DNA of 64,000 nt from Papiliotrema nemorosa (Eukaryota > Basidiomycota > Tremellomycetes > Tremellales > Rhynchogastremaceae), in contig JASKOT010000013.1 in NCBI GenBank assembly GCA_032158125.1, positions 124,001 through 188,000 of the forward strand, read 5' to 3'. Under the pieces are notes generated by a model, which worked only from the letters and a program-made list of their open reading frames with translations, had not been told where the DNA came from and did no database searches. This document shows positions 2,664-64,000 of this stretch, piece after piece. The stretch's first letter is position 1. The number at the start of each line of letters is the position of its first letter. Position numbers and translations under genes: made by a program.

Positions 2664-3737
2664 TCAAACACATGCGAATTGTTCCCACTTTCTCTTCAGA
2701 CTATTGTCACCTCCCCCGGAAGTCAAACCCGACGATATTATCCCATCTTCCGTCGGGAAAGAATCCCCACTGATATGCATCGTCTTGTGTGTTCGACCTT
2801 TTTGCTTGAAGTAAGGCAGGGTGCTTCCTAGTGCCACATCCAGGTCAGAGTCCCTCACAACGTAGAAGAGTGGTCGAGTTGCAGTATCTAGATACTTTTC
2901 CTCGAGCATCGACCTTGCTTGACTGAAGAGAACCGAGGTCTGTCTCTTCAACGCATCTTGTGTGAACTCCACGAACTGTGGCAATACGTCAGCCCCGGTC
3001 GTGGACCGAAAGAAGGGACAGGGGCCCGTATCAAGAGACTCACCGTCGGATCTGTCCTCGTGGCAGTTTTGATCCATTCAGCGCCTTTCTTGAATGCCTC
3101 GACCAGGTCCTCATCAGTATGGAGAACCGTCTTCTGGTTGACATTCCGACATTCAACGACCTTGTACATCAACTCATGGGTTATTTCTCTCTCCACACTG
3201 CTCTGAATGTTACCCTCCTCACTGCTGTCCCTCTCACTGAGTCGCCTCTTTCGGTTTTTCAGCTCTTCGTCGGAGAACATGCGAAGAGAGGGCGTAAAGA
3301 GGATGACATTCTGGGTCGAGTCATGCAAAAGTCGATAACTTCTTCGAATGGGACGTTCACGGTCACTCTGGTATAGCCTATCCCAGCTGGACGCAAGCTC
3401 GGGGATTCCTGTCTCTGCTCAAACTCTGAAAACTTCGGTGGAACGCCAATGATCAGTCGAGGTGACTTTTCCGTCCTCTAGGAGACTGGCACGAGAAGGG
3501 ATATCGAGCTCGAGCTTCTCTCTGCTGGTCAGTGCCGCTGTTTCAAGGGACTCTGTGAGGGAGACTGGTTTGCTTGTGTATGAACAGTCAGTGGATGCTA
3601 CTAGTCAAAAGCTCCGAGTCTGAAACGATTTGGTGGTAATCACAAGGGACCCACTCTGAGTGCCCCGTCGACCTGAGCAACGGAGGCAAGGCATCATCCG
3701 CCGACAAATTCACAGAAGATTGAACTGGGTCCGACAT
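2664..3737 (-). CDS. Divergent family member A (unknown function)
   Basis: The 3' half is firm. An exon ending at the stop (2664-2975) joins through a 68-nt intron (2976-3043, GTGAGT donor) to an exon covering 3044 to about 3400. The 5' part is less certain: an ATG at 3737 opens MSDPVQSSVNLSADD, and further exons reading SLTESLETAALTSREKLELD and GIPELASSWDRLYQ need weak introns to connect. The protein has two copies of the module seen in its neighbours: NQKTVLHTDEDLVEAF, and a helix (LFSQARSMLEEKYL) followed by RPLFYVVRDSDLDVALG. It has no signal peptide or membrane segment. Function unknown. It belongs with members B-F and J by this module, not by strong pairwise identity. Confidence 0.6.
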
Positions 3738-4812
3738 TACTCGATTCAACTGTTCTCGTAAGTGGAAAATTCAAAGCAGAGCGTATAGCGTCGGCGTAAA
3801 GCAAGGCAGTCTCTCAGGAGCTAGACAATGAAGAAAAGCAGGAAAACCTCGTCGATTGAGCAAGTGATATCTTTGCGTTGTCCGCTTGACTTGGGCGTGC
3901 TTCCCTAAACTTCTTTGACCGAGCGTTTCAGCCAGTAAAAGGGAAAGACCATTACTCGCCTCCGATGGTGTACATCGGACGGTATAAGGCGGCTCTTCAA
4001 TCCCGAGCCAAGCGAAGGTGTGTGGCAGAAGTCGTGTGCGGCGGTTGTGGTCCATGATCTTGGCTCGAGCCGTTGAGGCAGCGATTGTGATGACGTGTTC
4101 CTGGATGGTACGTAGTGGACACAGCACATCGAGAGGCATAGTTTGGGTAGTACCATGTATATACGTTGTTCTTCGATCAAGCAGCCGATTGCAACAATTC
4201 CTCTGCTTCACTGCCACAGGGGATTCACTTGAGCCCTGTCCAGACTATAGGTACTTGACAGAGTGTTCCACCTCCGGAGAGCAACCGAGACAGATCCAGA
4301 GCTTGACGGGTTGCTCGTGGTGCGTTAATCAGGGAGCGATTCACGTTCAGTCACAGTCTGGAAAGGAAGCTAGCTGGGGATACATGACGGTTCAAAAGGG
4401 AGAAAATCACTGACGGTTGAAGGAAAGGCTCATGTGAAAGTTGTGCCACGAGGTACCGCGCTTGGTATACTGAAGATGCGTCCTACTCGTACTGTAGTGT
4501 GGAAACGTTCCTCTGAAGAGCTCGCTTCATAGCGTAGGAAGTGATCACATATCCCCCACGTGCAACAGCTCTCAAGGAGACGCCTCAGGAAGGAAGCATT
4601 GAGCGAACGCGTCTGTCCGCTCCCACGAGTCAAACTCCTACCATGTTCGACACGCAATCATTCGAGGGGTTGAAAGGAAGCTCAAGGCGGAGAGCACCCA
4701 TGAGATTTTCTTATATGTAGTCCTCGGATGGTTTGGGGACAGGCGTGTCCCTTCTCGCCGCAGACTAGAGATACTGTATTGTCTTCAGCCCGTACAATCC
4801 ACGATATTCGAC
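3738..4812. other. Intergenic, divergent promoters of family members A and B
   Basis: About 1.1 kb between two divergently transcribed family genes. Open frames here are short, have no recognisable motifs and overlap on both strands, so I call none of them genes. TACTGTA occurs at 4490-4496 and 4772-4778, the second about 35 nt upstream of the member B start. Confidence 0.5.
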
Positions 4813-6133
4813 ATGTCCACTCAGTCCACTCCCAGTCCAGGTCAATCGTTGGCCTCTACCACAATCATTCTGCCCGGCGCCGAAAATACAAGGCCAACTC
4901 CATTCAATCGAGAATCTATATCTGCTCGTCGTTCTGGAGTGCATGGCAGAACCTCGAAAGCCAATGGTGTCGCTCGCTATCAAAGTGCCGAAGGAGACAG
5001 ATCCTCACACGTCCTGGGACTCAGCATGTCTGTCTCAAACGACCCACTTGGATATGACATGGGGGCTTCTTTCTTCAGGAGCTCCGACACAGAGGGCTTC
5101 CCACTATCTCCTGTGGTCGATCGGGTGGTGTCCAGCTTTCCTACCGGAGAAAGCTGGAGTGACCAATTTATTCGAGAGCGAGCAGAGGCTCGGATGTCCA
5201 CCGACCGTCCCGAAACAGTGGGGGTAATTCAAAAGGTGAAGAGAGCTGCTGCAGTCACAGAGGAAGAGCTCGAGAATTTCCAAAAGACTCTATCCGCCTA
5301 CGCTGCAGGCGTCATGCAAGAACTCGTGGATCAGGTGTATCGACTAGAAATGGCCAGCGAAGAACGGTACTCTCGCCCGCTTGTAAAGCCCATGACTTGC
5401 CTTGTTCTTGAGGCTTCGGCTACCGAACCTGATCGGGTCTTCACGCGGAACGACTTCGAAGATTCCCACAAGATCGAAGGCTCGTATACATTGAGTGCAA
5501 TCGCTATGTAACGATGCCAAGGTCTTGTACGGCTTTTACAAGTGTCCTTCCCTTGTGGTACGCTCGGACAACTGTGGCGAAATCGAGGAGGACAGCGGAA
5601 GACCCGCCTTGTTCGTCCACGAATCCTTCCACCAAGGGCCCTTGGAATTTACAGACCGTCGTCCCGATCACATGATCGAGAATGGTTATATTGGCACCAG
5701 AATCAAACCACAGCCTGTGTTCGGCATCTCCCATTGCTCGAACACTCAAGGCGGCGAGTCGTCGAAGGCAATCAAGTCGATCTTGTCCTCCTTGGAAGAC
5801 AACACCGTTTTCCTGGACAAGGTCATCAAACCTCTCTCACAACGACATGTTTTTGCCAAAGACCTGCACGCACCTTCGCTCTTTTCTCAATTCGTCAACA
5901 ACAATCAGACAGGGGCGTTCGAGGCTCTATGCGCTCGCAAGAGCGAGGAGTTTGCACAGACTCTCCAGCAGTATCTTCAAGAACGTATGGCGAATGAAGA
6001 CGAAAAGTCTGTGCCAATCTGTCTCGCTGTGAGTTATGGGGATTTCGAGCAGAGTACGAAGCAGGGCACATTGGCAACCATCGACACGCAAGAGAAATCG
6101 GTCGTCTTCCGTGATCCCGGCGGTATGCAGTGA
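4813..6133 (+). CDS. Divergent family member B, with an apparent frameshift
   Basis: The reading frame opens at ATG 4813 (MSTQSTPSPGQSLAST) and runs to about 5491. Coding then continues in the +1 frame from about 5495 to the stop at 6133. The two halves align end to end with tandem neighbour C: NGVARYQ/NGVATYQ, SSHVLGL/PTHVLGV, YDMGASFFRS/YEIGASFLRS in the first half, and GPLEF/GCLEF, TRIKPQPVF/TRIKLEPTF in the second. No GT-AG intron of suitable length bridges the shift, so I infer a one-base insertion or a sequence error. The module occurs twice, as a helix ending EERYSRPLVKPMTCLVL and as FAQTLQQYLQERMANEDE followed by VPICLAVSYGDFEQS. About 440 residues if the frames are joined. Function unknown. 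Confidence 0.6.
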
Positions 6134-6495
6134 GATCTCCTATGTATGGTGTGACTATATGGGGCGTAGGGGTAGCAGTTGCATGACCTAGATTAACACG
6201 ATACCGAGGTTTGGAAGAATGCCGTTTCCGTAGTCATCGCATCCCATGACGACTGTGCGTGCCACATATGTACTCGTACTGTATGTAAAGGAGGGATGAT
6301 GGCGTCAATGATGTTGGCTGTTCAAGACTGTCCTTAGTCTGTCCTGCGGTCCTTTATGGGGTGACCCTCCTTTTGAACTGGAACTTCTTCGCCTTTCCCT
6401 CTCCCACCAAGTTTCTAGAAAGAGCCTACGACCATGACCCTCAAATACCGACTCAATCCTCCCAGGATCCCCGCTATCACTCCCGAACCTTCACA
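6134..6495. other. Intergenic between tandem members B and C
   Basis: No gene seen. It contains TACTGTA at 6277-6283 and is probably the terminator of B and promoter of C. Confidence 0.5.
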
Positions 6496-7748
6496 ATGGC
6501 CGACTCTGGTCAGGTATTTTTTATTCCTCGTCGAGATGGGAACGCCAAGGCTGTAGCATACACATCAGAGTCAAAGTCATCTCGTCTGTCGAAACTATTT
6601 GGACAGACCTCCAAAGAGAATGGTGTCGCTACCTATCAGCATGTGGAGGGCGAAACTCCAACACATGTCCTGGGGGTGAACGCTAACATCAATACCCCAG
6701 GCGGATACGAGATCGGGGCGTCATTCCTCCGAAGCCGGGAAAAGAATTGTCCTCAGCTGCCTGCTATGGTCGATCGAATCGTCTCCATATTCCCACGGAA
6801 CGGCGAGTGGAACGAAGACTTGCTGGAACTCGTTGCCGACCGTTCAAAAGCTAACAGCGATCTCGTTGCCAAGTTTAAGGATACCGCTTATCTCTCTGGA
6901 TTGACAATCACTGAGCGCACCGAGCTGTCCACAGCTCTATCGGCAGGCATTGCGATTGAGCTCCAGACTGTCGTCAACGACATCTTCGAGATGGAGCAGG
7001 CATCCAGAGAAGTCTATTCCTGTCCACTTATCTTGCCTATCAGCTACCAACAGCTACAACAGTCGGCCACTGAGCATGAAGAGATCTTTCACCGATCAGA
7101 TTTCGCCCTTGACGTCCAGGAAGGAGGATCGACAGAGCATACACGGAGACTTGCCAGCGATCTTTTCGACTACTACAAGGAGCCCGGTATCGAGATACTT
7201 TCATCCACCGAATTGAAGTCTCTGCGCAACAATCAAGGATCTGCTGTCATACTCAATGCAACTACGAAAAGGGATGTCTGGAGTTTTGGGACGAGCTGGA
7301 CGATCACCTGTATCACAGTGAGCGAAGGGACAGAATTGTCACCCGCATCAAGCTTGAGCCCACCTTCCGCATCTTGCTTGGCAGCAAGCAGAAAGACTCA
7401 CAATTTTCCAAACTTGATACTGTTTTGAATTTCAATTCAGAATTTGTTCACAAAGTCATCAGCTCGCTGGATGAAGAAGAATTGCTCAATGAAGAACTGT
7501 ACAAACCGGACTTCTTCTCGCAACTGGTCTCGGCCGATCCCTCTGACGAGTACCTTACAAAGTGCGCTGACCTGTCACAGCGCTTGCTCAAAAAGACGCA
7601 AGAATATCTTCAGATCAAAGCAGAGGACGAAGGCTTCTCTATGCCCTTGATTCAGGTAGTGACAAAGGCAGAATGGGACACAATTCTTGATCAGGGAAAC
7701 CTCTACGAAGGAAGCGATGCCTCCTCTCCGAACATGGAGACGGAATAG
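6496..7748 (+). CDS. Divergent family member C, tandem paralog of B, with an apparent frameshift
   Basis: The start MADSGQVFFIPRRDG at 6496 is preferred because the upstream in-frame extension is unrelated to B. The first frame codes to about 7260 (..NNQGSAVILNA). The homologous continuation, YEKGCLEFWDELDDHLY to the stop at 7748, lies in another frame beginning near 7263, which implies one missing base. An alternative is a 35-nt intron (7318-7352, GTGAGC donor, AAG acceptor) that would rejoin the frames but discard the GCLEF segment that matches B. Both module copies are present: a helix then VYSCPLILPISYQQLQQ, and LLKKTQEYLQIKAEDEG then MPLIQVVTKAEWDTIL. Soluble, about 417 residues, function unknown. 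Confidence 0.6.
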
Positions 7749-7981
7749 TTGCGCCTGCATTTAGGAATCGCTGCTAGGGCAGATGGGGTGTTATAGCTGC
7801 AGAGACATGCTGAGCGGTCTGAAGACGCTCGGACGGATCATGCACGATGTTGGATGATGATTTTCTCCGCATAATAGGCGACCAGCATGAGGAGGGTGCG
7901 TAACATCATGTCTCAGTTTCATTGATTCATCTCCACAATAGCACACGATAGAGTCTGATCCACGCTCCTGATGAGCCACAG

Positions 7982-9491
7982 CTACCTGCCCAACCTCGAC
8001 CTGAGTGAGCTGAGAAATGGCCACCCAGTTGCACTGTCTGACTTTGGTAAAGTGAAGACGCCGGAAGTCACAGCATCATCGAACTCTGCTTCTTTGAGAA
8101 GGTAGATCTCAGGTACTGCCTTCTCCCTTTCTTTGATTGTCTTGCTCTCCAAGTAAGTTCTCACCGCTGAAGTAATCACCGACTCGATCTGAGTTAGAGG
8201 CAACCGAGAAAGAATCTGCTCATCCGTTTCCTGTGGAATGGCGACTGCAAAATCTCTCACATCGGTGTGTCCCATGCCAGAGGTGGAATCGATCGAGCTG
8301 TCCAGGAGGGGTGTGCTTTCGGTATCAACTCCGGCTCCATCCTCCTCTGAAGGGGTTACTTGAGTCTGTGAAGTGGCAATGTCCTGCGATACCTGGGTGG
8401 CGTCTGCGAGACTCTTGCGCTCGTTCTCCAGCAGCTTTCCAAGATCGGTTCTCCAAGCCTTTTCCAGCTCTTCGTCATATTTGGTGCCTTTTTTGAAGGC
8501 CATTCGATGATTGTGCGATATCGAGTCATAGTGTTCAGTCTCCCAAGGTCGAGCGAGGAGCGAACGAACGGTCACTCCACTCTCGGAGTTCACTGCCACG
8601 GAAATCAGCACCGCAGCGGACTTTCCGGGTTGGGTTGCCGTATCATCACCATGCTCTCGGGTCCTGACGAATACTTCGTACTCACGGACCGAGGACTTCT
8701 GTGGTTCGATACTGCAGCACCCTTGATCATTCAGAGCCAGCATGTCGTCATGATTGATGACTTCGATTGCGAGCTTCACATCGGGAGGAAGATCAGCCTG
8801 GAACTGGGACTTGAGAACCGACATGTAGCGACTCGAGTTCACAGCCACAGAGTCTCTCTGAGAGGTCAGTCTGCCATGTATCTGGGAGGCGTACATAAGA
8901 ATCGTCTGCCAAGTACGACCCGCACGGACTCCAACTCACGCAGTAATTGAGTCTTGATGTCTCCTTGTTGGTCCAGTTCCATGCGTTCAAGGCTGACCCA
9001 TCTAGGGATCCGTGAGAGTCAGCTTGCATAGCTGAATTAGCCGGAGCCGTAACTCCATTCAAGACTTTGTCCACCAAAGACCGCAGTTCCTCAATGGAGG
9101 GCTTATCGTTTCGATCGGCTCGAGCGACAAGGGTAGCAGCATACGGAATGTCAGAACTGTCCTTCGAGATCATACAAGGTGTGATAAATAGAATGTCGGT
9201 TCCGTAGTCGGCCGGCAGCTGCTTTGATGACACGTTGACATGTGAAGTCGATGGCGAATCTGCACCATTGATGACTTTCTGAGGGTGGCCAAAACTCAGT
9301 AATTTGAGACGTCTCGCACTCTTCCCTGATGGTTCGATGATAAGACGAGATGCGATGTCAAAGGGGTGACAGTCAACCAGGTCCACGCTGGGTAGGGTCA
9401 CCGTGGTAGACTCTCTGTGAACGTCGTTCTCAGCTTCTTCGCCCCAGTCTTCAGGGGGAGCTGGACCAATAACGCCGTGCGCGGTTGACAT
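7982..9491 (-). CDS. Divergent family member D (unknown function)
   Basis: Two exons, 9491-8940 and 8857-7982, joined in phase 0 across an 82-nt intron with a GTGAGT donor and CTCAG acceptor, give 475 residues from MSTAHGVIGPAPPEDWGEEA. There is no signal peptide or membrane helix. Module-like segments are VKLAIEVINHDDMLALNDQG in the middle and, near the C-terminus, the helix SAVRTYLESKTIKEREKA followed by VPEIYLLKEAEFDDAV. A Ser/Thr/Glu-rich linker lies between them. The C-terminus is short and basic (SSLRSRLGR). It points toward tandem pair B/C and is transcribed in the opposite direction. Function unknown; the match to the family is by architecture. Confidence 0.65.
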
Positions 9492-10316
9492 GTTCTTCGT
9501 TGAACGGCTTGGTTTTTATAGTGCAACAAAATATGATGGGTAGTGGCAAAGCGGGAGAAAGAGTGGGAAAACGCAAACGGTGCTCGAGGTCTTATAGCAG
9601 CGTAAATTGCATGCTGTGTCAAGGAAGAAGCAGTCAGGAATACATGAAGCGCTTCTGAAGAGACTTCGACGAGGAGAAAGACATCAAAGGAGGTTGACGC
9701 TTGCGCGAGCGACCTCTGAGGGGCAGCTTGAGACTCTTCCTGAACACTGCTCGAGTTCCATGTATTGTAGTACTTATGCAAGACTTCGTTTTACAGATCA
9801 GCTAATGCAGTCTGCCTTCAAGTCGACCTAGCTGTGCTTTTCAATGGGGACCAGCTACCAGGTATCGAGAAAGCGAGCATTGTCACATGGGCTGCTGCGG
9901 CCGCTACGCTTGTTGCAGTCACACCCCGGGACGACAAGGTTGTGATTTCCTCGTCAGCCCGGATTCCAGGGCATTGACAAGCGAGAAGCTCGGAAAGTGT
10001 TTGTCTAAGCAGTAGATAAGCTATCCAGCAAGGCGATAAACAGATTTTGAAGCAGGCATGACGATCGCAAAACATAAAAGTTGATTTCATGATACTCTTC
10101 AGTAGACCTTTACTGCTAATGGCCACGATCGCACCCGCACGCACCCGCTGACAGGCCGCATTGACTGTAAGCGTGATTGCCATACTCTGAGTTCTCTATC
10201 CACCGCAGCTAGCCCCTCGATATGTTCTAATCTCACGTAGTCCCGATGTACACAGCTCGTAGTCCCAATGAGGCATACGGCGCCGGACCCTCCGACACGT
10301 TGGTGGACGACCTGGG
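9492..10316. other. Intergenic between family members E and D
   Basis: About 0.8 kb upstream of D and downstream of E. Short open frames on both strands have no recognisable content. No gene called. Confidence 0.5.
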
Positions 10317-11395
10317 TTAAGAGTCGTCTACCGAGTGAGGGTCTTCAGGACCGACCTGGGACACGGCAGTAACCGTCGCATCACTCGTCGGAACGGGGTC
10401 AGGGACAAAGTACTGGTTGACGCACATGCTCAACCACTCCAAAGCATTCATGTTGCAGACTTTTGGATCGATGTATAGGTCGGGATCCGTCGCCTGCTGT
10501 GCAAACTCAAGGATCTTGGTTCCTATGTCGGTCTCTAGGGCTTCCAGATAGGACTCAGGAGTCAGATGCTGGGAGTTGACGAATCGATCATAGGTTGAAT
10601 CTTCGATGCCTTTGATCGCTTCGGTCAAAGTGCGATTCTCTTCTGTGTCCGGCTCCATGAGACGTCTCACTCCTGGAGAGACGCCACCCAGTGATTCGAT
10701 ATCAAAGGGGAGTGCCAAAAGCGTATCGGTGTGTGCTCTTTTGCTCTCAGCATCGACATTCACATGAAAGACGATTTGACTGGGATTCCTGCCGGTCGAA
10801 GCATCGGCGTATAAAACCCGAGGAAAAGTGCGATGGAGATCTACGTTGTGCAGCTTCAGGTCTTCATGAGGAATCAGTCGTTCGGGGTTAGAGAGTAGGC
10901 AGTCCAAATCCGAAGCTTCAGAGAACACTTTTACATCCCACTTGGGCTCGGAGCCTTCTTGCTTGCTAGTATCGGCCAGGACTTGACCAACGGTGGACGC
11001 ATACAGAGAGGCTTTTAGGTCTGGGTGACGCCGGTAGGTCTGTGGGAAGGATCAGTTTTAGATATCTAATGTGTTCGGCATCTTACCGGCACGTATCCCA
11101 CTGCCTCTGCTTGTTCAACTTCGTCTGCGAGAAGCCAGCTTACAGCTTTCTCCATCTCTCTCCTCCACATGTCATTGAAGATCGGTGCTTCGGTGTTATC
11201 GCCTTCTGCCCTGCAAAGAATTGTTCCATAGTAGAAACCCCCAGAAACAATGGAGAGGATTGGGCAGAGCACAAAAGTCGATTAGCTCAAAGCAGCTGTA
11301 GGCTCAGACCTCCACGCTCCAGACTCGAGAACATCCGGGTCAAGCACTTGACCACTCGCGGCGTCCGCCTCGACAATTCGCTTGATGTGACTCAT
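10317..11395 (-). CDS. Divergent family member E (unknown function)
   Basis: Exons 11395-11310, 11210-11087 and 11039-10317 splice in frame to 310 residues starting MSHIKRIVEADAASGQVLD. The first donor (GTCTGA) is weak, so the first exon is less sure than the rest. The segment HPDLKASLYASTVGQVL resembles SHPDISWRISARTDD in member H and AHPGVSWRISVDTEN in member G, linking the two subgroups. The module motif appears as WDVKVFSEASDLDCLLS. The sequence is acidic, soluble and has no known catalytic motif. It is divergent from the SET/Tad3 gene to its right. Confidence 0.6.
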
Positions 11396-11949
11396 CGAAA
11401 ATTGATGTGTGATATGTTTGGACTTCTGACGAATGTATTGGGAAGATGGTACGGTGAAGAATGGCTCTGGAAGGATAGAGGTAATGGATGGCGAACTGAC
11501 TGCTCAGTATATATATGTGCAACTGACAGACCTAGGAAGCGCCCTGAAGGATTCCAAGAATCCAAGAAGCCAGGAATTCGAGAAACCAAGAATCTGCAAC
11601 TCCCTTCCGAGTGCCCCCTTTTTCTAGACGTCCCAAGGTTCGAAACTCGTCTCGATACAACATCTCTCACTTTGCGCCTCTACCTGAGAGAGAGAGAGAG
11701 AGCCGCGAGAGCTTGCGCATACGCGCTCCCTTTGCATTCGAGCCCCTTTTGATTGCTTCGCCACATTCGCCACGTGGTTGCGGTTTCAGACTGCTGTAGA
11801 TAAAAAGTTGACGGTCGATCACTCCTCACCCCACTTTGCACCTAAACACCGCGTCGACTCAGCGTATACCCGTCTATCGATCATCTAGGATCACTATACT
11901 GAGCCTAGATCTGATTAATCGCCTGTTTCCGCTTTTCTCCATCCAGTAC
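11396..11949. other. Divergent intergenic region
   Basis: Shared upstream region of member E (-) and the SET/Tad3 gene (+). It contains an AT-rich TATATATA stretch near 11507 and a short GA repeat at 11686-11702. Some may be 5' UTR. No gene seen. Confidence 0.5.
11686..11702. repeat. Short (GA)n microsatellite
   Basis: Seventeen bases of alternating GA read directly from the sequence, in the divergent promoter region upstream of the SET/Tad3 gene. Confidence 0.9.
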
Positions 11950-19838: not shown

Positions 19839-22082
19839 CTACTGCCAAGAACTCTTGATACCCTCCACTACTGGCGCCCAACGCTCTAATCTCCCTCTCT
19901 CCTCCGCTTCCACCATGCGTAACAAGCTTCCACCGCCAAACTCTCTCCCTTCTTCCCTCGCTTTAGCGCGAATACGTTCTTCCGCATCGCACCAAAACAT
20001 CTTCCACCCTTTCTTCCTGTCTACCGCTGGCTCATCTCCAGGCTGCAAAGCACCTTCCTGCGTCGTGACGAGCGGCAAAGTAGGCGGTAACCAGACGAAA
20101 CCATTGCTTCGCTCAAAGTACCACTTGTTGACTGGATTATCTGCCCGACTCCTCCATACCAGATCTTTACCTCTTCCTATACCTGATAAGCTTCCCTCTG
20201 AAGGATTCGCAGCATCCAGTAGACCCAAACCATACGTTTCATCACGTAGTGCGACCCACAGGAAATCGACAGTTCCATCACCTTGATTACTGGGTAGCAC
20301 CGCGAATTTGTCCAGATAACATATGCCTTCGGGATGCGAGGATGAGCGGCCTTCTTTGGTGCATACCGCTGCACCCGCATAGTCGCCTATGACAATGACA
20401 AAGTCGAGGTCTGCCTCCAATCGACGCCAGAAACGCGGCGCATCGAGAGTGCGGCGAAAACTCGTTTCAAGGAGACTTTGGAGTTTCGTCTTGTCCACTT
20501 CGGATAGCGACCGGTAGATCTTGACGGGTTGTCCGCGTCGAATCAGAGTAGGCGTGTCCCTCGTGATACCATTCTCGGATTGCGTAAGAAGGGAGTGAGG
20601 TAGAGATGCCGAATGAGCGGGTTTGTTGGTGATTAGGTTGGCAATGAGGGCCGCAGGGGATCGGTGTGAGACGATCAGTGCACTAGCTTCTTTCGGCATG
20701 TGTCGAAGGCAGTTGTTGGCGACTGATAGATTGGATAAAGCGGTGGGGTGAGTGTGATACCATGATGGGAGAAAAGTATCGCGAATAAAGGAGAACTCCG
20801 AGGCGAGATTGATCGATAGATGAGGCATTCCCGAACGAGCGTAAGAAGGGATCCCGCCTTCTCGGTTGATGATCAGCAACCGCATGGGTGTCAGGTCGAG
20901 CCCTCGGACCGTGGGTGTCGATGGTGTAGAAATGCTCGACATGGCTCGGGCGAGGGAGTGAAGAACAGGATTCGCTCCTACCCGCCGCGCACGACAATTG
21001 GCGTCCAAGGCGACTGGGAGTAAAACTGGTATCTCCCCTTCTTCCACTGCACGGCGTACATGATCCAATCCTTCTTCTTCGACAAAGACTCCCTGTCCAT
21101 TCGCTATCTCGTCCTCAGAGACCTCTGCGACTCGCGCCACCGTAGCTAAGACTGGTCGGGCAGGTGCTCGATGACGATTGAGGAAAGAAACCATTCGCTC
21201 AACATCACGAAGCATCAGAGTTCGCTGGCGTTGGGCTGCAACATGATCATGAGGTTCGATAGCGGGAATGTCATCCCTGTCCACCACGATGACGGAAACC
21301 AGACCCAGTCTCTGTAGTTGTGCCATGCCTCGCGCAACGGAGTTGAGCTGGATATCCGTGAAGGGCCCTTGAATCTTGACTAATGCTGTTCGTCGAACCC
21401 GCGGGTTGAGCAATGAAGTGACGAGGGAATTAGGTGCAGCTTTGGCAGGCCGAGGAGTTGTCGGAGGAGCGATAGGTTCCGGAAGGACAGTGAATACGGG
21501 GAGAGCGGCTGTCTCGTGAGGGATGTCGGATGCTGGCGTAGGGGCAGGATCAGGAGCGAAGGACGACAAGTAGGATTTCGAGTCCCGCATAGAGGGTGAC
21601 GCTTGCAAGATGGAAAGGATAAAGTCCTGTACGTTGTCAGCTATGTAGGCTACTAAGTGCGACGGAGTGATATTACATTATTCTCCTCATTGTCCAGAGC
21701 CGTGGGATCATCAGGCAGATCATGGTATGGGCGGAACTAGGATATCAGCACGGTGCGAGATGATAAGCACTAGAATGTACCTGGACGAAGGGGCGGGTGA
21801 GCCGCCTGGATGATACTAGTGGTATTGGAGGCTTCCATGGTCCTCCAAGAGCCCTCATTGTATCGGGTGCAGACGCTGACCCTTGACTCGAAGCAATGGA
21901 TGGTTTGAAGGGTCGAGTGTAACTAGCTCGTCGCGAGTCGACTTCGCTTTGGTCAACCTCCACCTCCTGTCAAGGCCTCTCTGTCTATGAGGTGAGATCA
22001 CACTCTGCTCAACAGTTTCGCCGACTACTTCCGCGACCGTAGCTATGTAGATCGGATGATTCCATGAGTCCCGAGGTTTCAT
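19839..22082 (-). CDS. ARG2: Mitochondrial N-acetylglutamate synthase (amino-acid N-acetyltransferase)
   Basis: Exons 22082-22029, 21966-21781, 21736-21677 and 21626-19839 splice in frame to about 695 residues. The enzyme makes N-acetylglutamate from acetyl-CoA and glutamate, the first step of arginine synthesis, in the mitochondrial matrix. Family hallmarks are [20 protein letters not shown] near the start, an amino-acid-kinase-like middle domain ([20 protein letters not shown]), and a C-terminal GNAT domain with [20 protein letters not shown] and [19 protein letters not shown]. The first exon ([18 protein letters not shown]) is chosen because its phase fits; it is the weakest part. ARG4 and ARG3 lie 11 and 16 kb away on the same strand. 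Confidence 0.88.
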
Positions 22083-33907: not shown

Positions 33908-33945
<38 letters not shown>

Positions 33946-36495: not shown

Positions 36496-38166
36496 CTACG
36501 CGAAGCAAGACCATCTTGATTTCTTTGATCCTCTCCTCGGGGCGTCCTCCTCATCACTGTCGGCGGGTAGTCTGACGATTGTGCCCGGTACTGCAGCAGT
36601 CTCGGTGGTCTGCGGCCGGTTACCTGTCTTGTCTGCCGCACCTGGTGGATGCACCTGGCTGTTTGTCATGGTCTGCTCTATGGCGAGGTCGTCGACTTGA
36701 GCTGATGAGCTCCCTCCGGGGGTAGTTGTCGGCAAATCAGTGAGCGTCTCGTAGGCTGGAGGGGCATCTGGGTGTGTGTTGTTCGCCGACGTTGAGCTCT
36801 CGCCAACTTCGTAGCCTGCCGTCGTGGGTAATCGTTTCTCAATCTCGGAAATCAGTCGACCTGCATTTTTGGGGACACCGTAGAGTGTATCAGTTTCCAC
36901 TTGACATGTCGACATGGCGTTATTCATATCGGCGGTCGAGATGGCGAGGACGTTTGGTGGATCACCGGCAGATTTGGACTGCTTGTGAGCGGTATCGATA
37001 TATCTCTGGATGTACGACACAGCCATATCGCTGGCTATCCCGCCACAGTTCAGCTCTTGATTTCGCCCAGTGTATTTGGTCACGAGGTCTTGTGGTTTGT
37101 AGGCATCACCGTCAAAGGAAGCGTACGCAGTCTCGATGTCATCAACGATTCTGTCGAGACTGTCTTTCGCGCTCTTATCAGTGGGATCAAACATCTTCCA
37201 CAGGTACGAAGGCACATTCTTGATATCTTCGATTTCGGAAGGGATGACGAGTTTTGGTCGGATCGACATTTGACCTGTACGGGACAGCTGAGTGTTCACA
37301 ATGACATTTGCCACTTTGTGCGTGTCTCGGCCCGGTCTGTGGTCGCCCCAAGAACGAACCGAGAGGATGAGGTCCATGTCCTCGGCAGGATTGTGTGAAG
37401 GATCGAAACTGACCTTGGTAGGGTTTCGAAGCAGGTCAGACAACTCGTCCTCTGAGACAACCACAAAAGCAGCAGATGTACCACGCTTCGTAAATTCGGC
37501 TGGGTTGCCTCTTCCATGACGACTTGACAGGAATCGAACCATCGTAGAGCCGAATTGGCTCGCAGTCTGATTCGGATTTTGCAGCGGGTCCTGAGACGTG
37601 TCAAAATCTCTCTGCTACGGGTGCTATATTTCAATCGATGGTTACTCACTAATCCTCTCGACTTCTGATAAGCCGAAAACCACTCGGCGGCACTTCGCAC
37701 CGTCTGATGCCATTCTTTCCAGTCGTAATATATCAAGGGTTTTCCATCATTCTCTGCACATGGTTTGATCATTCTCTTGTAGGTGAGTCTCCCGTCCGTT
37801 GTCACCGCAGGTAAGATAAGGTAATGATCTGTGCGAGTTTGCCCCCGGCTGTCCGCAAGGCTCCATTTGAGATATTCGAAAACCTCATTCGAGATCGAAA
37901 TGAAAGGTGAGACTGTTGCTGCATCAAGTCCATCCTGTATCTCGGCGCTTGACGCGTCTCTACAATACCCTTGGCAGCGTGTCCAGATTGTTCTGTTCGT
38001 AGGATCTCCGATTATAAGCTTTCCAGAAGTCTGAAGTGGGAAGATCTTTCTGTAACTGAGCCTCGGTCTACATTTCGCACTCTTACTGATGAGGCACTTA
38101 CCTCTCGGTCTGAGGAGGAGCCATCGATTTGCTGGTGCCCGATGATAGGCTAGTTCCCCCTTGCAT
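36496..38166 (-). CDS. Divergent family member F (unknown function)
   Basis: Exons 38166-38102, 38049-37650 and 37590-36496 splice in frame to 519 residues from MQGGTSLSSGTSKSMAPPQT. It is the clearest full-length member. Module copies are SAAFVVVSEDELSDLLRNPT and, after the helix MAVSYIQRYIDTAHKQS, PNVLAISTADMNNAMS. An N-terminal part (EVFEYLKWSLADSRGQTRTD, DWKEWHQTVRSAAEWFSAYQ) resembles the Trp-containing helices of other members. The C-terminal 110 residues are disordered, contain a PPAY motif (a possible WW-domain or Rsp5 ligand), and end in a basic stretch with one Cys (RRGSKKSRWSCFA). No signal peptide or membrane helix. It sits between POP5 and ARG3. Function unknown. Confidence 0.72.
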
Positions 38167-45373: not shown

Positions 45374-46274
45374 ATGCCAGCAAGTACAGCCAAGTCAGAA
45401 GGCAATCTGAGCAAAGTCGAAACCTTTCTCCAGCCCGACTCCTCCGAGAGAATTACCTCGACAGATCGTGCAGATGATAGCGAGAGCGCTTCCGGTGAAG
45501 AAGAAGGCCCGGTACAGAGAGCTCCTACGTCGACGCACAAAGCAAAGGTCGCAGCTGATACTGATACAGACCCCGAGCAATACGACCAAGAGCCTCCCTC
45601 GGCGACTGAATCTCGCTCAGGTTCTGCGTACGTCAAAGCTTCCGCTGATCACTCATGGTAGGCCAGAAACGCCCGCAGAGGTGTACTTTGTGGAGAGCAT
45701 GACAAAGTACAAGGGACAGCCTTACTGGTCACCAAAAGCGGAGAAACAAGACACTCAGGACACAAGCGACAGCGATGACGAAGATCGAAGTCCCAGCAAA
45801 GAGCCAGCGGCCACTTTTGTCCATTTACGATGTCTCTCAAGAGCTCATCCTGGTGTCAGCTGGAGAATCAGCGTCGACACGGAAAACATCGATTCTCAGG
45901 TCCTTCCTTCCGCTATGACCATCACTGCAATCCACAAGCTTCATTCTGATAGTTACAATCACGGACACCGAACCACATGGAGCACTATGCGTTCATCCAT
46001 GTCTGACAATATGGTCAAGGGCGACCTTGGTCAGTCTGAGCGCATTTTCCGCTCGCACGTTACAGGAATTCAAGATTACATCTTGCATTGGGCAGACCAT
46101 GCTGATGATCGAGTCAGATCCCGAAGATCGCTCAAGGCACATGAGAAAACCGCCGTCCTTACTGAGGAGATACGACGTGGGTTTGACCCTACGGAAGGTT
46201 TCATCCCAGACTGGGATACGGTCTGTCAGGCTGTCAAAGCCGAGGCACAGCGACTTGCATCTGTTGGAGAGTGA
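45374..46274 (+). CDS. Divergent family member G (short subtype), tandem paralog of H
   Basis: Exons 45374-45627 and 45662-46274, with a 34-nt intron, join in frame to 288 residues. The first exon is disordered and rich in Ser, Glu and Asp. The second contains PAEVYFVESMTKYKGQPYW, then VHLRCLSRAHPGVSWRISVD, ending with FIPDWDTVCQAVKAEAQRL. These three blocks align in order with member H (SELYCVENLSKSSRRAYW, IHIRCASRSHPDISWRISAR, FTPHWDTVLHAFKAEKLRR). No catalytic motif, membrane helix or signal peptide. It looks like a smaller relative of members A-F and J, linked through the HPD/HPG strand block shared with E. Function unknown. Confidence 0.68.
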
Positions 46275-46967: not shown

Positions 46968-47702
46968 ATGAATACAGTGAGCCAGTTCATTCCCTCACAT
47001 GCGGCCGCATTTATGCGTGCTCTATCTTTGCACACCTCGAATGCCGCCTCGAGACAGTCGCCCACGGCATGTTCCGAACTGTACTGCGTGGAAAATCTCT
47101 CCAAGAGCAGTAGAAGAGCATACTGGGCACCGCCCAAGTTCAGCTTGCTTGACGTCACGGATGAGAATAGTGATATTGATGATGGACTTGCATATTATTT
47201 CGAGCGTGCAGACCGAGTCAAGGATGATTATATCCACATTCGATGTGCATCGCGGTCGCACCCAGACATCTCTTGGCGGATCAGCGCCAGAACGGATGAT
47301 ATCAACTCGCAAGGCATACCGTCAAATGTTACAATTGCAGCTTTATACGATCAGGTCTATCAAAATTCCAAACAGCAACATATTATATGGACAAGCTGTC
47401 GGATTTCAGAACCCGACAGCTCGGGTGAGCGACGTTCATCCCGGGCGGAAATTCTGCTTGTGGAAAGCAAAATCAAAGCGAAAATGAAACAAGTAAAATC
47501 CTGCATTCTGAGCAAGGATGATACTACTACGACTCTCTTTTGGGAAGACCGACCATTGAGAGATGATCAGATTTCGCTCACGACCGTCCAGCGCGAGGGA
47601 TTCGACCAAGAGATGGGATTTACCCCTCACTGGGATACTGTATTGCACGCTTTCAAAGCTGAGAAGCTGAGAAGGAATTATGGGCTATCCGTAGCGAGAT
47701 GA
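46968..47702 (+). CDS. Divergent family member H (short subtype)
   Basis: An open frame of 244 residues from MNTVSQFIPSHAAAFMRALS to the stop at 47702. It is a clear paralog of G, with the same three conserved blocks in the same order and spacing. A GTGAGC directly after the third codon and a CAG before SPTACSELYCVEN could be an intron, placed as in G, so the true N-terminus may be shorter. The middle is charged (SKIKAKMKQVKS). No membrane segment or known motif. Tandem with G and I, same strand. Confidence 0.65.
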   Translation: MNTVSQFIPSHAAAFMRALSLHTSNAASRQSPTACSELYCVENLSKSSRRAYWAPPKFSLLDVTDENSDIDDGLAYYFERADRVKDDYIHIRCASRSHPDISWRISARTDDINSQGIPSNVTIAALYDQVYQNSKQQHIIWTSCRISEPDSSGERRSSRAEILLVESKIKAKMKQVKSCILSKDDTTTTLFWEDRPLRDDQISLTTVQREGFDQEMGFTPHWDTVLHAFKAEKLRRNYGLSVAR

Positions 47703-48331: not shown

Positions 48332-49279
48332 ATGAACTCGGAGTTTGTCCGCTCAAACATCCAAAGTGTCCTCGCGCGGGCTCAAGCCTTGAAACAATGT
48401 GAACTCACACAGAGGACAGAGAGTATTCAACATGACCAGGCTTCTTGGGTCTATTCATGCGGAACGGCAGTGGTGGCACCCATACCTGAAAACTTCGGTG
48501 GGCAAAACCAAGAGCTCTTCAGCCAGGCTGCAGAGCCCTGGACCGCCTCTCCGGGGTTCAGTGGCGAGGGCGTCGAAAGTGACAGAGGGGAGAGAACGAT
48601 CATCAGTGTGCTCGTGGCTGCGGATACTTGTCCAGACCTACTTTGGCTCTTTTCTGCGTCCCTAGATCAATTCCAGCAATCTGAAAATCAAGTACCACCA
48701 AGAACCCATCCCGCACAGATCAGTGTTCAGCTCTTACATAGATCTCGGTTCGCGCCAAAGGGTATCACGGCGACTTGCACTTACGCCGACTTTTCAGAGG
48801 CGAATCCAGATTCGGACGAAGCAGATATTTGGTTTCTCGTCAATGGGGACAATTTGAAACTCAGCGATCATTCCACCCAGGCGGATACTCCGGTCCTTGG
48901 TCTCCTCTCAGCTGCAGTCGGCGACACTACCACAGTCCAACGACAGATTTCAAGGCCTTTGGATACCGCCACTGTCGGATCACAGTGGGTTGCAGGTTCT
49001 GAGGAATGGATGAACCGTCAGCTTTGGTTGATCAAGAGCAACACAGTCTTTGCATCTGATGTCTTGCTCAAAAGGCGCAACAGAGGTGGGAAATTAACGG
49101 AAGGACAGACTGTCCGGCTTCTCACGGATGATCAGAGAGCTTTGCTGGCAGACGACTCTGAGGCCAAACTCACGCCTTCTCTAGAGACGATTCTAGCGCT
49201 CATGAGCGAGGAGTATCAGAAAGTCAGGGCATCTCAAATCGGCCAGGCAGATCAAGGTGTGGCGCCGTCCAAGGAATAG
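48332..49279 (+). CDS. Divergent family member I (short subtype)
   Basis: An uninterrupted frame of 315 residues starting MNSEFVRSNIQSVLARAQAL. It matches G and H more weakly but in the same order: ISVLVAADTCPDLLWLFSAS corresponds to the HPD/HPG-WRIS block, and TPSLETILALMSEEYQKVR to the C-terminal WDTVxxAxKAE helix. It lacks the acidic first exon of G. Soluble, slightly acidic, no known motif. It completes a three-gene same-strand array and is followed closely by the 3' end of NIC96 on the other strand. Function unknown. Confidence 0.62.
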   Translation: MNSEFVRSNIQSVLARAQALKQCELTQRTESIQHDQASWVYSCGTAVVAPIPENFGGQNQELFSQAAEPWTASPGFSGEGVESDRGERTIISVLVAADTCPDLLWLFSASLDQFQQSENQVPPRTHPAQISVQLLHRSRFAPKGITATCTYADFSEANPDSDEADIWFLVNGDNLKLSDHSTQADTPVLGLLSAAVGDTTTVQRQISRPLDTATVGSQWVAGSEEWMNRQLWLIKSNTVFASDVLLKRRNRGGKLTEGQTVRLLTDDQRALLADDSEAKLTPSLETILALMSEEYQKVRASQIGQADQGVAPSKE

Positions 49280-49413
49280 CTGTTGACGAGGCCCGTATGA
49301 GTAGACATGTATATTGTTGAGATGAAGAGCAGAGGTGGAAGGGATAAGTCGAGTGCAGTAAATGCCAGTCGGCCTGGTGCGGAGTTTCATGTGGATAATG
49401 CATCGCTCGAGGG

Positions 49414-52656: not shown

Positions 52657-52968
52657 GTTGGGCTGTGATGCGCGGTGAGGTTGGGATTGTACGGGCAGAA
52701 TGATGAAAGATCAAGCACGGTGAGAGGTGAATTGCAAGTGCCACATTGAGCATATTCCCGCTTGCCACGCGCGTGGAAGCGTGGGCTGGGTGGCAAAAAA
52801 ATGGGACCCATTTTCAACCGAGGTGGGGGAACGCGACAGGGAGAGAGAGGGCAGCTGATACGCATTTGGGAAGAGAGTGGAGATGAGCTCATTCCCATAG
52901 ACATCCATCCCTTCATCCCACCACATTCCTCGACATCCTCGACTCTACTCCTCACCGCACCACCCACA
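52657..52968. promoter_or_regulatory. Divergent promoter region of NIC96 and SEC4
   Basis: 312 bp between the two start codons. Pyrimidine-rich leaders flank each start. No specific element can be named. Confidence 0.4.
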
Positions 52969-54004
<1,036 letters not shown>

Positions 54005-54471
54005 TTTCATTGGGATTCATATCGATCCGATGTTGGCCGTCTCAGTATGGAAGGAGCAGTTTGTATACACGCGAGAGGAGGTAGACGACACCGGACATCC
54101 ACCACATATACCCCTGATCTCCGGGGGCAGATTACGACCGACGGCAACGCGATTCCACATCTCACCGTAGTTTATCGACAATCACTTGAACCTTTTCCTC
54201 TTACAATATGTCTCGGCTTCTCTTCACTCACATCTTTTACATTTCGTTTTCCTTCCTTCTCTTCTGGATGTACATTGTATACAGCGCGACCTGTCGTGCC
54301 GCACTCCTTGATGAGCTTTCAATCCTGCATTATAGGTTAAAATTGGGGGAGTGATACAAATATGATCTAATTCGACAAGATTGGTCAAAGACAGCGACAA
54401 CAATACCCACCCTGCAGCATTCACCACGGCGTCTCTAGTCTGCAACGCCGCACTCCTCAGTCCAAATCCTT
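54005..54471. other. Intergenic, convergent 3' ends of SEC4 and SEC2
   Basis: 467 bp holding the two 3' UTRs. No gene seen. Confidence 0.55.
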
Positions 54472-57271: not shown

Positions 57272-57427
57272 GATCACCTCACCCCCGGAGCAATGTTCCG
57301 TGCAAGGCTCGACTTCCTGTGCGACTAGTTCGAGGGGTTTAATACGGTGCGAGCAGGATAGAGAGCCTCGATATCATCAGACTCTTTGGTACAGCTATTC
57401 AACTGAAGCGAGGGCGAAGGAACAAGA

Positions 57428-60400
57428 ATGGGTCCTGGGGAAACAAACAGCGACCAAACAGGTCTAGCACGTATCGCTATCGACCGTGGAGGGACTTTTA
57501 CAGATGCTATATGTTCCCGACCAGGTCACGATGACATTGTCCTGAAGGTGAATACAAGTTCCCTCTCGTATCTTGGGTGAACGCTCATGTTGCAGCTCTT
57601 GTCTGTTGATCCGCAAAACTACAAGGATGCACCGACCGAAGCGTAAGCTGGACCACACAATGCAGAGTCGTGCTCATCTACAGCATACGTCGCATTCTCA
57701 GTCAGCTTGACCCCGATGCTCCACCGATCCCAAAGGATCAACTCTTATCGCTGGACAAGGTAGAATCCATACGTATGGGTACGACGGTTTCTACGAATGC
57801 GCTGTTGGAGAGAAAAGGGGAGAAATGCGCCTTGATAACCAGTAAAGGGTGGGGAGATGTTCTGCTCATTGGGATGCAAGGTGAGTTTCACCTTTTTGAT
57901 GGCTTTGTGGCTCACGAGTAGCTCGGCCCGACATCTTTGATCTCAGTATACGAAAGCTTGCCTTTCTATATGACGAAGTCGTGGAGGTGCGGGCTAGTAG
58001 CAAAACCCGACTGATTTTCAGGTGGACGAGCGTATAACTCAGCTTCAATCGTTAGTATCGCCAAAAGTTGCAGTCGACAAGAGCGATCCGAATATTGTTA
58101 CTGATACTGCTACCGGCGAAGTGGTGAAGATCTTGACTCGTCCCGACCCGCAGACCGTATCGGAGCAGCTTGACGCGTTGAAGGCAAAGGGGATCAATTC
58201 CGTAGCCATTGCTTTCGTGCACAGCTATCTCTGGGGAGAGCACGAACGGCTGGTAGCACAGTTGGCGGAAGAGAAAGGTTTGGCCGTTAGCGTTAGCAGT
58301 CAACTGCAACCAATGGTATGTGAAATGAGGCATTGTGATCTGCCCGAGCTGACGCAGCAGATCAAATTGGTCGCTCGAGCAAACTCCTCTATCGCCGATG
58401 CATACCTCACTCCAGTGACTCGAAGGTATATCGAATCCTTTGGCTCGGGTTTCGAAGGTGGTCTAGAGGCATTCGGCAACAAGCTGCTCTTCATGCAATC
58501 AGACGGAGGTCTATGTTCATGGGACAACTTTTCGGGACTTCGAGCAATTCTTTCTGGACCAGCTGGAGGAGTAGTGGGATACTCCAAGACGTGCTACGAC
58601 GAGGAGTTAGGCAGTCCGTTGATCGCTGTGGATATGGGCGGGACGAGTACCGATGTCTCGAGATATGCCGGAAAGCTAGAGCATGTATTTGAAACGACGA
58701 CAGCGGAGGGTACGATCTCGCCGCAACACCATCATGTTGCAAAGCTGATGGGTAGTGATCATCCAAGCTCCACAGTTGGATATCAACACCGTCGCTGCTG
58801 GTGGAGGTAGTCGGCTATTCTACCGCCACGGAATGTTTGTGGTCGGTCCCGAGGTGAGTCTAGCGGTGTCTTCTAACACCACACTGACATTCTCAGTCCG
58901 CTACAGCGCACCCCGGACCGGCTTGTTATAGAAAAGGTGGTCCGCTCGCAGTCACCGATGCCAACCTGATACTCGGTCGCCTTCTGCCAGAACACTTGTG
59001 CGCTTTGTCTTCTACCCATATACCCGTACTGACAGATAGTCCGAAAATCTTTGGCCCAAACGAAGATGAGGGGCTCGATATAGAAGCTAGCAATACCCTG
59101 TTTGACCAGGTGACCGCCGAAATCAACGGAACCAAGAGCGAGAAGCTCTCGAGGGAGCAGGTCGCTGCTGGTTTCCTGCGGATTGCGAACGAAGCAATGT
59201 GTAGACCTATTCGAACGCAAGTCAATTCGCTCCTACCGGCTAGTTTTGCTGACAAGCAGACTCACCGAAGCGAGAGGATTCGAATGCAACACGCATCATC
59301 TGGTGATGTTTGGTGGTGCTGGTGGTCAACACGCCTGCAGCATCGCGACTACCCTAGGTATCAGGCGAATCATTATTCCTCGATATTCTTCTATTCTCTC
59401 AGCATATGGTATGGCTTTGGCCGATGTTGTTGTTGAAGCAACGGAGCCGGCCGCATTTACCGTCACCGAAAATAGGGATACGTCAGAGATTGCAAAACGG
59501 CAGACTGCATTAGTCAAGAAGACAGAAGACGATTTGCGAGGTCAAGGCTTCCCGGACGATCGAATCAGCTGTGAAACGTTCCTCAACTGCCGATATCAAG
59601 GCACCTCAACCCAACTCATGATCGAGAAACCGGAAGATGGTGATTATGAAAAACGATTCTACGACGAGCATAAACGCGAATTTGGATTCAACCTGGACAA
59701 GAGGGATGTCATCGTGGATGATATACGGGTAAGGGCTGTGGGAAAGAGCCTGGGAGCAGAAACGAGAAGTCCTTATCAAGACTTTGAGAAGGCGAACAAG
59801 AGTCCAGTAGACAACTCGACATTCGAAACGAAAAAGGTGTACTTTGACGGCCCAGGATGGAAAGATACGGTGCTCATCCCGCTCGAAAAGCTGCAGGAGG
59901 GCGCTCAAGTCAAAGTGAGTAAAGGTTCACCATCGAAAGCTGACAACAAGGGGCCTGCAATAATCTACGATGCAACGCAAACAATCTTGGTCGAGCCCAC
60001 GCACCAAGCTACCGCTCTAGCAGAGCACGTCATCATCGATCTAGTGGAGGAGAAGGCTGTGGAGCATAAAGTCGATACAAAGAACTATGATCATGTCGAC
60101 CCAGTACAATTGTCGGTTTACGGCCATCGACTCATGGGAATAGCCGAGCAAATGGGTGATATCTTGCGCAAAATCTCCATCTCTCTCAACATCAAGGAAC
60201 GATTGGACTAGTGCGTGTCTTCGCTGCTCCTCATTCCTTGAGCTGACTTGCAAAGCTCCTGCGCTATCTTCGCCGCGGATGGTGGATTGGTCGCCAATGC
60301 TCCTCACGTGCCTGTGCATCTGGGCGCGATGTCTCATGCTGTGCGATATCAAGCACAGATCCACGGGGATACACTGCAAGAAGGCGATGTCTTGCTATCA

Positions 60401-62222
60401 AATCATCCCGCCGCGGGAGGCTCGCATTTGCCAGATCTGACTGTGATCATGCCGGCTTTCCATGAGGGTAACATTATCTTCTGGACTGCCGCCCGAGCAC
60501 ATCATGCCGACATCGGTGGTGTGAGTCTTATCGTCTATCGAAACGAACAGTCGCTGACAGGCAATAGATCCGAGCTGGCTCCATGCCGCCATTCTCCAAG
60601 GAGCTATGGGAGGAAGGCGCCCAAGTGCGGTCATTCAAGCTGGTCAACAAGGGTCAATTTGATGAAGCTGGAGTAATCAAGATCTTATCCGAGGAGCCTG
60701 CTCAGTATCCTGGATGCAGCGGAACAAGGACACTGTCAGATGTGGGTCCGGAGGACGTGAATGTGAATCTGACTGACAGAACCTTTCCGACCTCCACGCT
60801 CAAGTCGCCGCTTGCCATCGAGGCACCGTGCTCATCCGAGCGCTCGTCGAGGAACAATCGCTGGAAATCGTCGACTTTTACATGCACGCGATCATGAAAA
60901 CGGCAGAGAAGGCTGTGAGGGATTTGCTCCGACATGTACACAAGAACTTTGGTGGTAAACCTCTCGAAGCGGTCGACTGGCTGGATGATGGGACTCAGTT
61001 GGCTCTGAAGATCGAAATAGATGAGAACGACGGTTCAGCCGTTTTCGACTTTACGGGTACCAGTCCTCAAATGTAAGTCCCGTGATCCCTCAAGATGATC
61101 CTGATAAAAGACACGGAAACTTCAACATGCCCACTGCCGTCTGTTACTCCGCCATCATCTACGTCCTGCGATCGCTCATCGTCTCGGACTTGCCCCTCAA
61201 TCAGGGTTGTTTGGCACCTATTAAGCTGATTGTTCCTCCCGAGTCATTGTTAGCTCCCACGGATGAGGTGGCTGTGTGCGCAGGTAACACGGAAGCTTCG
61301 CAGAGGTGTACCGATGTGATATTGAAGGCGTTCCAAGCTTGTGCAGCATCTCAGGGTGGTTGTAACAAGTGGGTATCTAGGCGTGATTTGGAGTCAGCTG
61401 ATAAGCGCAGTCTCACTTTCGGTATCGGTGAGCGGGAAGTTGATGGCAAGACAATCCCAGGTTTCGGATACTACGAAACGATAGGGTGAGTTTATCTCGA
61501 GGAATGGCGAGGGTTCATTCTAATTCTTAGGGGAGGAGCAGGTGCTGGATCGGATTGGAAAGGGCAGAACTGCGTGCATGTTCACATGACCAATGTGAGA
61601 GGGTTGCGGCTCGATTTTGAAGCCGAGCTAACCGAAGACTTCCATCGGCGACGTCGAGCTTACCGAGCGAATCTACCCTGTGATCATCCATCAGTTCTCA
61701 CGAAGACCGCACAGTGCGTGAATCGACTTGTTCGCCTGAAGTCAGCTGATTATTAGCGGGCGGCAACGGACGTAATCGGGGAGGTGATGGATGTATACGT
61801 GATATCGAATTCACAGAGGATCTCGATGTTGCGATTCTCTCGCAGCGTCGAGTGATCCCACCGTACGGAATGGCTGGAGGAGAACCAGGTGCAGTCGGCG
61901 CCAATTACTGGCTAAAGAAGACCAAGAGGAAGAACGAGGACGGGAAGGAGGTGGAGAAGATGACAAAGATCAGTCTGGGTGGATCCAACCAAACGAGGAT
62001 GCACAAAGGGGACCATATTCTTATACGTCAGTGACATTCCATTTTCGCAACAATGGAGCGGAACTGACTTGCTCAGATACGCCTGGAGGAGGAGGTTACG
62101 GTGTGGCTGGCACGGTAGATGATCGGTTGGACGAAGAGGTGTACAAGAGGAGTATAGTAGCGCCCGTCCGCGCGGCGGGAAGCCTGGCGTCGTTTAAAGC
62201 TGCGCAGATGAGTGCAACATAA
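57428..62222 (+). CDS. OXP1: 5-oxoprolinase (ATP-hydrolysing)
   Basis: Roughly 1,290 residues assembled from 19 exons. The enzyme opens 5-oxoproline to glutamate using ATP in the glutathione salvage (gamma-glutamyl) cycle. Domain order: hydantoinase A N-terminal part ([40 protein letters not shown]), hydantoinase A ([60 protein letters not shown]), hydantoinase B ([60 protein letters not shown]) and the C-terminal [12 protein letters not shown]. Intron 59217-59259 is GC-AG. Intron 59915-59950 is 36 nt without stops and interrupts an otherwise conserved VKGPAII. It shares a 156-bp divergent promoter with SEC2. Confidence 0.94.
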
Positions 62223-62281
62223 TCTAGAACCATCAACCTCAATGCATACTGTAACATTCATAAGACTGATTTCCGTACCCG

Positions 62282-63444
62282 TCAATCTTCGCTGTCGACC
62301 ATTTGCTCAGAGGCATCCTCAAATACCGGCAGTGTATCCAGCCAAGGTCTCGCAAAAGCGCCGATTCCAGATTTGCTCCATTCCGTCCAAGCCGACTTAG
62401 TGGAGTAGTCAAGACCAGTCAGCTTCCTTTCCGAAATGAGCCTCGCAAAAGCCTCGCAGAGCTCTGCTTCGGAGATCTTGCCGTCTATTATGCGAATGTC
62501 AGTGTCGAGCAGATCCCACGATTTGCCCTGTTGACGCGCTCCAAGCAAAGTTGCATTATCAGAGTCCACTTGAGAGATCGCAAACCAGACACTAGGATCA
62601 TGCTTGTCGAATAGGGTAGCGACGGAAGCTCCGTGCCTCTCCAAGGATTCCAGAATGTCCTTTGCGGAGACGGGACAAGCTGTGTGGCGGACCCTGTACC
62701 CCGACTCGACTTTCACCGCTTCTTGTAGCTGGTCGGCAAACTCTTCAGGAGAGTTGGCATACGTGTCTTGCGCTACGAGCTGCATGAGTCTACGCGGAGT
62801 ATTCTTGCTGAGAAACTCGCCATTTTCTTGAAAGGCAAACGCCATCTTCTCGCTGATCCAGCTGATAGCTTTGGTCTGATCTTCCTCGGTGGATACTCTC
62901 TTGCATAGATTGCTGAGCATCTCTGTCAAGTGCAGTTGACAATCTCTACCTCTGAGGACTTTTGAAAGGGCTCTGGTCAAGTGTGATCCGGCCCGCTCAT
63001 CCCTTGGTAATAGCATGTCTTCTCCGCCACGTCCATCAGCGCTTTGTCCCACTTTGCTTAGTTGACCCGCGCTGCTGAGATCAGGGGACACCTCAAAAAG
63101 TAGAACGTAGCTGAGGGTCTCTTTGGCTGATCGTCGTTGTAGGTAGGCACGACAGCCAAGATTCGATCTACCAATTCATCCTTGTCCTCCACGACCAGGT
63201 AGACACCCGGTGAGGCGACTGATAGGGTTTTGAGGGTCCCCTCAATGTATTGCGACTCTTGTGAGAGGAAAGAGCTGGGATAAGCCATAAAGTGGTCGCT
63301 GGGACCACGATCGAATCGTTCATTGAGGTATTGATAAAACGAGTGGAACCTCTCGTCGTTTGGCTCATCCTTCTCTCCATAATATACCTTGACCGCGTTC
63401 TCACCCAGAGTGGGCGAACTGTAGACGTAAACCCCGGAGCTCAT
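62282..63444 (-). CDS. Divergent family member J (unknown function)
   Basis: Two exons, 63444-63154 and 63118-62282, joined by a 35-nt intron (GTCGTG donor, GAG acceptor; weak but the only frame-restoring choice I found) give 375 residues from MSSGVYVYSSPTLGENAVKV. The first copy of the module reads SPGVYLVVEDKDELVDRILA, very close in pattern to member F (AAFVVVSEDELSDLLRNP). A strand YVLLFEVSPDLSSA follows the junction. The second copy is SVWFAISQVDSDNATLLGAR. The stretch SERKLTGLDYSTKSAWTEWS near the C-terminus is Trp-containing. Soluble, acidic, no known motif. It ends 59 nt from the 3' end of OXP1. Function unknown. Confidence 0.65.
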
Positions 63445-63999: not shown

Positions 64000-64000
64000 G

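Follow-up and report, generated by a model that had tools for sequence, protein, structure and literature searches.

Small tandem groups of diverged, probably lineage-specific orphan genes among conserved genes of the yeast Papiliotrema nemorosa

Small, locally duplicated and fast-diverging orphans are a common kind of gene in fungi. In published accounts, 283 transcribed orphan genes are described from the 5463 genes common to three strains of Phaffia rhodozyma, a member of the Tremellomycetes (PMC5103461), three of 367 knockouts of Neurospora orphan genes have a phenotype in sexual development (PMC10684091), and homology detection failure is held to account for many fungal orphans (Weisman et al. 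2020, PMC7660931). Here, we report twelve genes, A to L, in Papiliotrema nemorosa and compare them with these systems. No paper on these genes was found in the literature, where searches could not name them.

The window, a stretch of 64,000 nucleotides (C13:124001-188000) from a genome of 19.19 Mb in 68 contigs, harbours genes A to J and the 3' end of K. Together with the remainder of K and with L these genes occupy 124-190 kb of a 447-kb contig (446,965 bases), and the orphan region thus lies away from a contig end. A Pfam scan of 20 neighbouring open frames gave matches above the cut-off in 14. Six of the ten frames in a first set matched, namely a SET-domain protein, a deaminase-like protein, Pumilio, PRMT5, a Lyase_1 enzyme and a Sec2-like protein. 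The eight matches among the ten frames of a second set comprised one frame each for ornithine carbamoyltransferase, ribosomal L30 and Nic96, two for an FAD oxidoreductase bearing EF hands and a glycerophosphate-oxidase C-terminal domain, and three for a hydantoinase/oxoprolinase. No HET protein was found among these 20 frames. The observation that tandem groups and singletons sit between conserved genes was borne out by these neighbours.

Gene A (2664..3737, minus strand) consists of fragmentary open frames, and no complete GT-AG model was found by a restrictive enumeration of gene models, which also missed gene E, later modelled by hand. Genes B (4813..6133, plus strand) and C (6496..7748, plus strand) are paralogues, each split by a frame break into two open frames (4813-5508 and 5513-6133 in B, 7269 closing the first frame from 6496 and 7272-7748 forming the second in C). 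Three minus-strand genes without a clear relative read through once introns are removed: D (7982..9491, 483 aa; one intron, 8882-8939), E (10317..11395, 310 aa; introns 11211-11309 and 11040-11086) and F (36496..38166, 519 aa; introns 38050-38101 and 37591-37649). On the plus strand, G (45374..46274, 288 aa), which reads through with a single and very short intron of 34 bases (45628-45661), is the paralogue of H (46968..47702, 244 aa); H is an intronless single open frame, as is I (48332..49279, 315 aa), which has no clear relative. The last group begins with J (62282..63444, minus strand), whose open frames are broken near 63092, and extends beyond the right window edge with its paralogues K (minus strand, 3' end at 63846..64000), an intact gene of 363 aa running to C13:188937, and L (C13:189345-190483), which carries a frame break.

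Open frames are present at all ten places where genes had been claimed. In a codon-usage test trained on 44 predicted non-family genes, in which segments of A to L were scored in six frames, the proposed frame came first in 18 of 19 segments, in some cases by small margins; exon 2 of F was the sole exception, and both segments tested of A scored best in frame. The median codon score was 0.029 for the segments of A to L against 0.043 for the training genes (leave-one-out). All 44 training genes were also best in their own frame, but they had been selected by coding score and were predictions of a custom gene finder that missed many multi-exon genes. Between tandem copies, identical residues were encoded by different codons in 37/61, 17/34, 33/52, 37/55, 25/40 and 24/36 cases, that is, in 50-67% of identical residues across six paralogue comparisons confined to locally similar stretches. 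Silent sites therefore appear saturated although the residues are conserved, which indicates long purifying selection. Codon usage and paralogue conservation support the coding status of the genes, and most of the ten loci look protein-coding. The encoded proteins had been described as acidic, without membrane helices and without signal peptides. Their predicted pI ranges from 4.5 to 6.3, except for H at 7.0, and the maximum hydropathy over any 19-residue window is 1.57, so that no membrane helix is obvious; the statement on signal peptides is covered by this hydropathy measure.

The description of the genes as hitherto undescribed agrees with the family libraries. No match passed the curated cut-off in Pfam for pieces of all ten genes and of K and L, nor in NCBIfam, and none was found in PHROGs (A, K and L were compared with Pfam alone, G with Pfam and NCBIfam). 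Sequence searches of the PDB gave a best E value of 0.057 for the B/C profile and nothing for G/H, the second part of J, F, exon 2 of D, I and the last exon of E. The J-K-L profile retrieved designed TIM barrels only, through one repeated 23-residue stretch, and these matches were rejected as an artefact. AlphaFold models had a mean pLDDT of 39.7 for C1+B1 and 37.0 for H+G and were too poor for a fold search, so that the models weigh neither for nor against a single fold.

A collection of 5.8 billion proteins in which Tremellales are well represented returned, for D and for the J-K-L profile, the genome's own copies only. This search reaches fairly close relatives: candidates, of which about 8000 were scored, had to share exact words of five residues with the query, and relatives of low identity would therefore be missed. 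As a control, the housekeeping NAGS neighbour (window 19842-21605) found 1147 proteins at E<=1e-10 in the same collection. The 120 of these that were listed include relatives at 88%, 78% and 71% identity, with Naematelia encephala at 71% and Saitozyma podzolica at 68% as the best named ones, which fits a Tremellales yeast or one close to it, in the class that the original observation named. No relatives were found in viral contigs searched with J-K-L and B/C, or in one genome per GTDB species searched with J-K-L. The presumed lineage specificity is compatible with these searches, in the protein collection for D and J-K-L, although distant relatives would lie beyond their depth.

Within the genome, nine single-protein queries (D, the first half of C, H, the second part of J, the last exon of F, I, K, the last exon of E and the second half of B) were run at E limits of 0.01-10. 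A and G did not serve as queries; G was recovered by H. Over 19.2 Mb they returned themselves, adjacent copies and a single match of F on contig C42 at E 1.63, which we take as chance. A large family with many dispersed copies, as originally predicted, was thus not seen, although distant genomic copies could be missed since one to four candidates per query came through the first stage. A search of 250 kb gave one weak extra match of G (C13:86392-86583, E 0.0078, 13.5 bits). The same 250 kb as genes A to L holds two further groups that are orphan-like by appearance: a set of short open frames in tandem that share a W-T-x-E block (C13:71080-74344, locus L018) and a tandem pair of open frames with 31% identity over 83 aa (C13:17331-18909, locus L012). 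Two related loci in opposite orientation share three matched open-frame pairs (C13:211171-212475 and 223921-225269, loci L027 and L028).

According to the original prediction the genes share an architecture and form one family. Clear kinship was found in five of the 66 pairs among the 12 genes, all within tandem groups: B-C (36.6% over 191 aa, E 6.6e-37, and 31% over 150 aa, E 1.2e-13), G-H (31% over 211 aa, E 3e-25), K-L, J-K and J-L. Clear relatedness within A to J is thereby confined to B-C and G-H, and pairwise comparison gave no clear kin for A, D, E, F and I. Could all or most of the 12 nevertheless belong to one superfamily eroded below detection, with a helix and P-x-hydrophobic strand block as its relic? 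The orphans sit side by side, and shuffle tests gave p<0.05 for seven of the remaining 61 pairs (E-F, H-I, D-L, D-F, B-E, D-I and A-D; H-I at p 0.015, uncorrected), three among the 11 unexplained pairs within clusters and four among the 50 between clusters; yet this is close to the 12 of 144 family-housekeeping control pairs. In profile-profile comparison of eight groups, none of the 28 pairs exceeded 1.3% probability and the real median (14.7) fell below that of the controls (15.3). Three pairs, all involving D, scored above the maximum of 19.9 among the 56 non-self reversed control pairs (BC-D 22.9, D-JKL 20.6 and A-D 20.4), but groups against their own reversals reached 29.0. We consider these three pairs a weak hint of wider kinship; with the within-cluster pairs at p<0.05 they suggest that some singletons may be unrecognised cousins. 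The repeated blocks that had been claimed have a true core in an internal repeat of the B and C proteins, whose two halves score 23.9 against each other, whereas the highest of 40 column-shuffled controls is 19.7. A motif profile of the four B/C repeats, however, picked up none of the other members in a search of 3862 open frames in 250 kb, and comparing the halves of J-K-L, D, F, E and I with each other, without shuffles, gave no repeat. One eroded superfamily is accordingly unlikely to our minds, if still worth keeping in view, and the family-wide architecture is not upheld. Far less credible is the descent of J, K and L from a caspase-like (Peptidase_C14) protein. J (window 62285-63091) aligns with PF00656 over the final 54 of its 233 profile positions (E 7e-4, 19.7 bits), one of five weak matches to this profile in the genome, but the score lies below the curated cut-off of 21.4, K and L have no match, profile positions 1-173, most of the domain, are left uncovered by a match at 174-227, and J has no relative in the PDB. 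E values of this size arise by chance, as is seen from the Pumilio protein, which hits an unrelated plant family at E 2.6e-4. On C12, two loci (L045 and L046, C12:373545-376450) also match the caspase profile weakly, one of them with two internal stops.

A further reading bears on the frame breaks: several members would be decaying pseudogenes, and part of what looks like rapid evolution would be loss of function. Seven genes have a paralogue, and in four of them (B, C, J and L) the frame shifts while similarity to the paralogue continues. No intron with a GTRNG donor bridges the break in B or J (GT-AG options with weaker donors number 29 and 81), and although C and L do have bridging GTRNG introns, splicing these out would cost residues that align with the paralogue; the incomplete model of A would fit decay as well. 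Against this, codon usage and similarity to the paralogue are both maintained on either side of each break, so the breaks would be recent or else assembly errors, and H, I and K are intact. Short repeats are common places for sequencing slips, and by eye the breaks of C, J and L fall in AAAAGGG, TTTTT and TCTCTCTC, while that of B does not. Decay of several members is doubtful on this balance, about as much so as the eroded superfamily.

Shared words upstream of the genes were also considered. The word TACTGTAC occurs seven times in the window against 0.60 expected, always in gaps adjoining the orphan genes (window 38277, 45302, 46466, 47918, 63511, 63732 and 63753). TACTGTA, the second-best 7-mer, lies within 600 bases upstream of 7/12 family genes and of 3/46 others, whose starts are gene-finder predictions (Fisher p 2.4e-4). 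Among the minimum p values of 200 random relabelings, the tenth smallest was already 1.4e-4, and the enrichment is thus unconvincing once the search over 7-mers is allowed for; TACTGTA is, moreover, in excess over the 250 kb as a whole, with 36 copies where 10 are expected. Upstream 10-mers are shared by at most three of the 12 genes, a figure equalled by 17 of 200 random sets. TACTGTAC and TACTGTA may be regarded as a candidate shared promoter word and a weak lead. It is quite improbable that the genes form a lineage-specific regulon, possibly serving mating or conflict, whose fast-diverging members are under the common control of TACTGTA and derive from a single ancestral repeat protein, now beyond recognition. 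TACTGTA is also found at C13:17881, with the orphan-like pair at C13:17331-18909.

Our preferred reading, to which we give a probability of roughly two in three, is that a Tremellales-type yeast here carries ordinary orphan genes specific to its lineage, comprising the tandem groups B-C, G-H and J-K-L and five loci without clear kin. Local paralogy, coding potential and a lack of described relatives within the depth of the searches are what the sequences show. Tandem duplication would generate the copies, and fast divergence would then leave relatives beyond the nearest species no longer recognisable, with some copies in decay or bearing assembly errors. Of the predicted expansion, what is retained is that the tandem copies were duplicated locally and then diverged strongly. 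By analogy with the Neurospora orphan genes, the likeliest guess as to the gene products is that they are soluble, conditionally used and mostly dispensable; they may be accessory proteins inside the cell, not essential in rich medium and serving particular conditions or life-cycle stages. Many look-alike neighbours of unknown kind need not form one family. With intact, broken and singleton copies so close together, these clusters offer a small, convenient system for studying how tandem duplicates turn into orphans.

The lineage-specific genes of Neurospora resemble those described here in having few or no recognisable domains, in being clustered and in lying, in some cases, beside homologues (NCU00529-00531); they gather near telomeres with HET genes, whereas the present genes are contig-internal and none of the 20 scanned neighbours is HET (PMC10684091). 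The orphans of Phaffia rhodozyma likewise lack relatives in other Tremellomycetes or in nr; their expression has been shown, while the genes here are known from sequence and several are tandem paralogues (PMC5103461). The quantitative test of Weisman and co-workers is built on orthologues from close species; their account explains absent relatives by steady divergence, without novelty, and may apply here too (PMC7660931).
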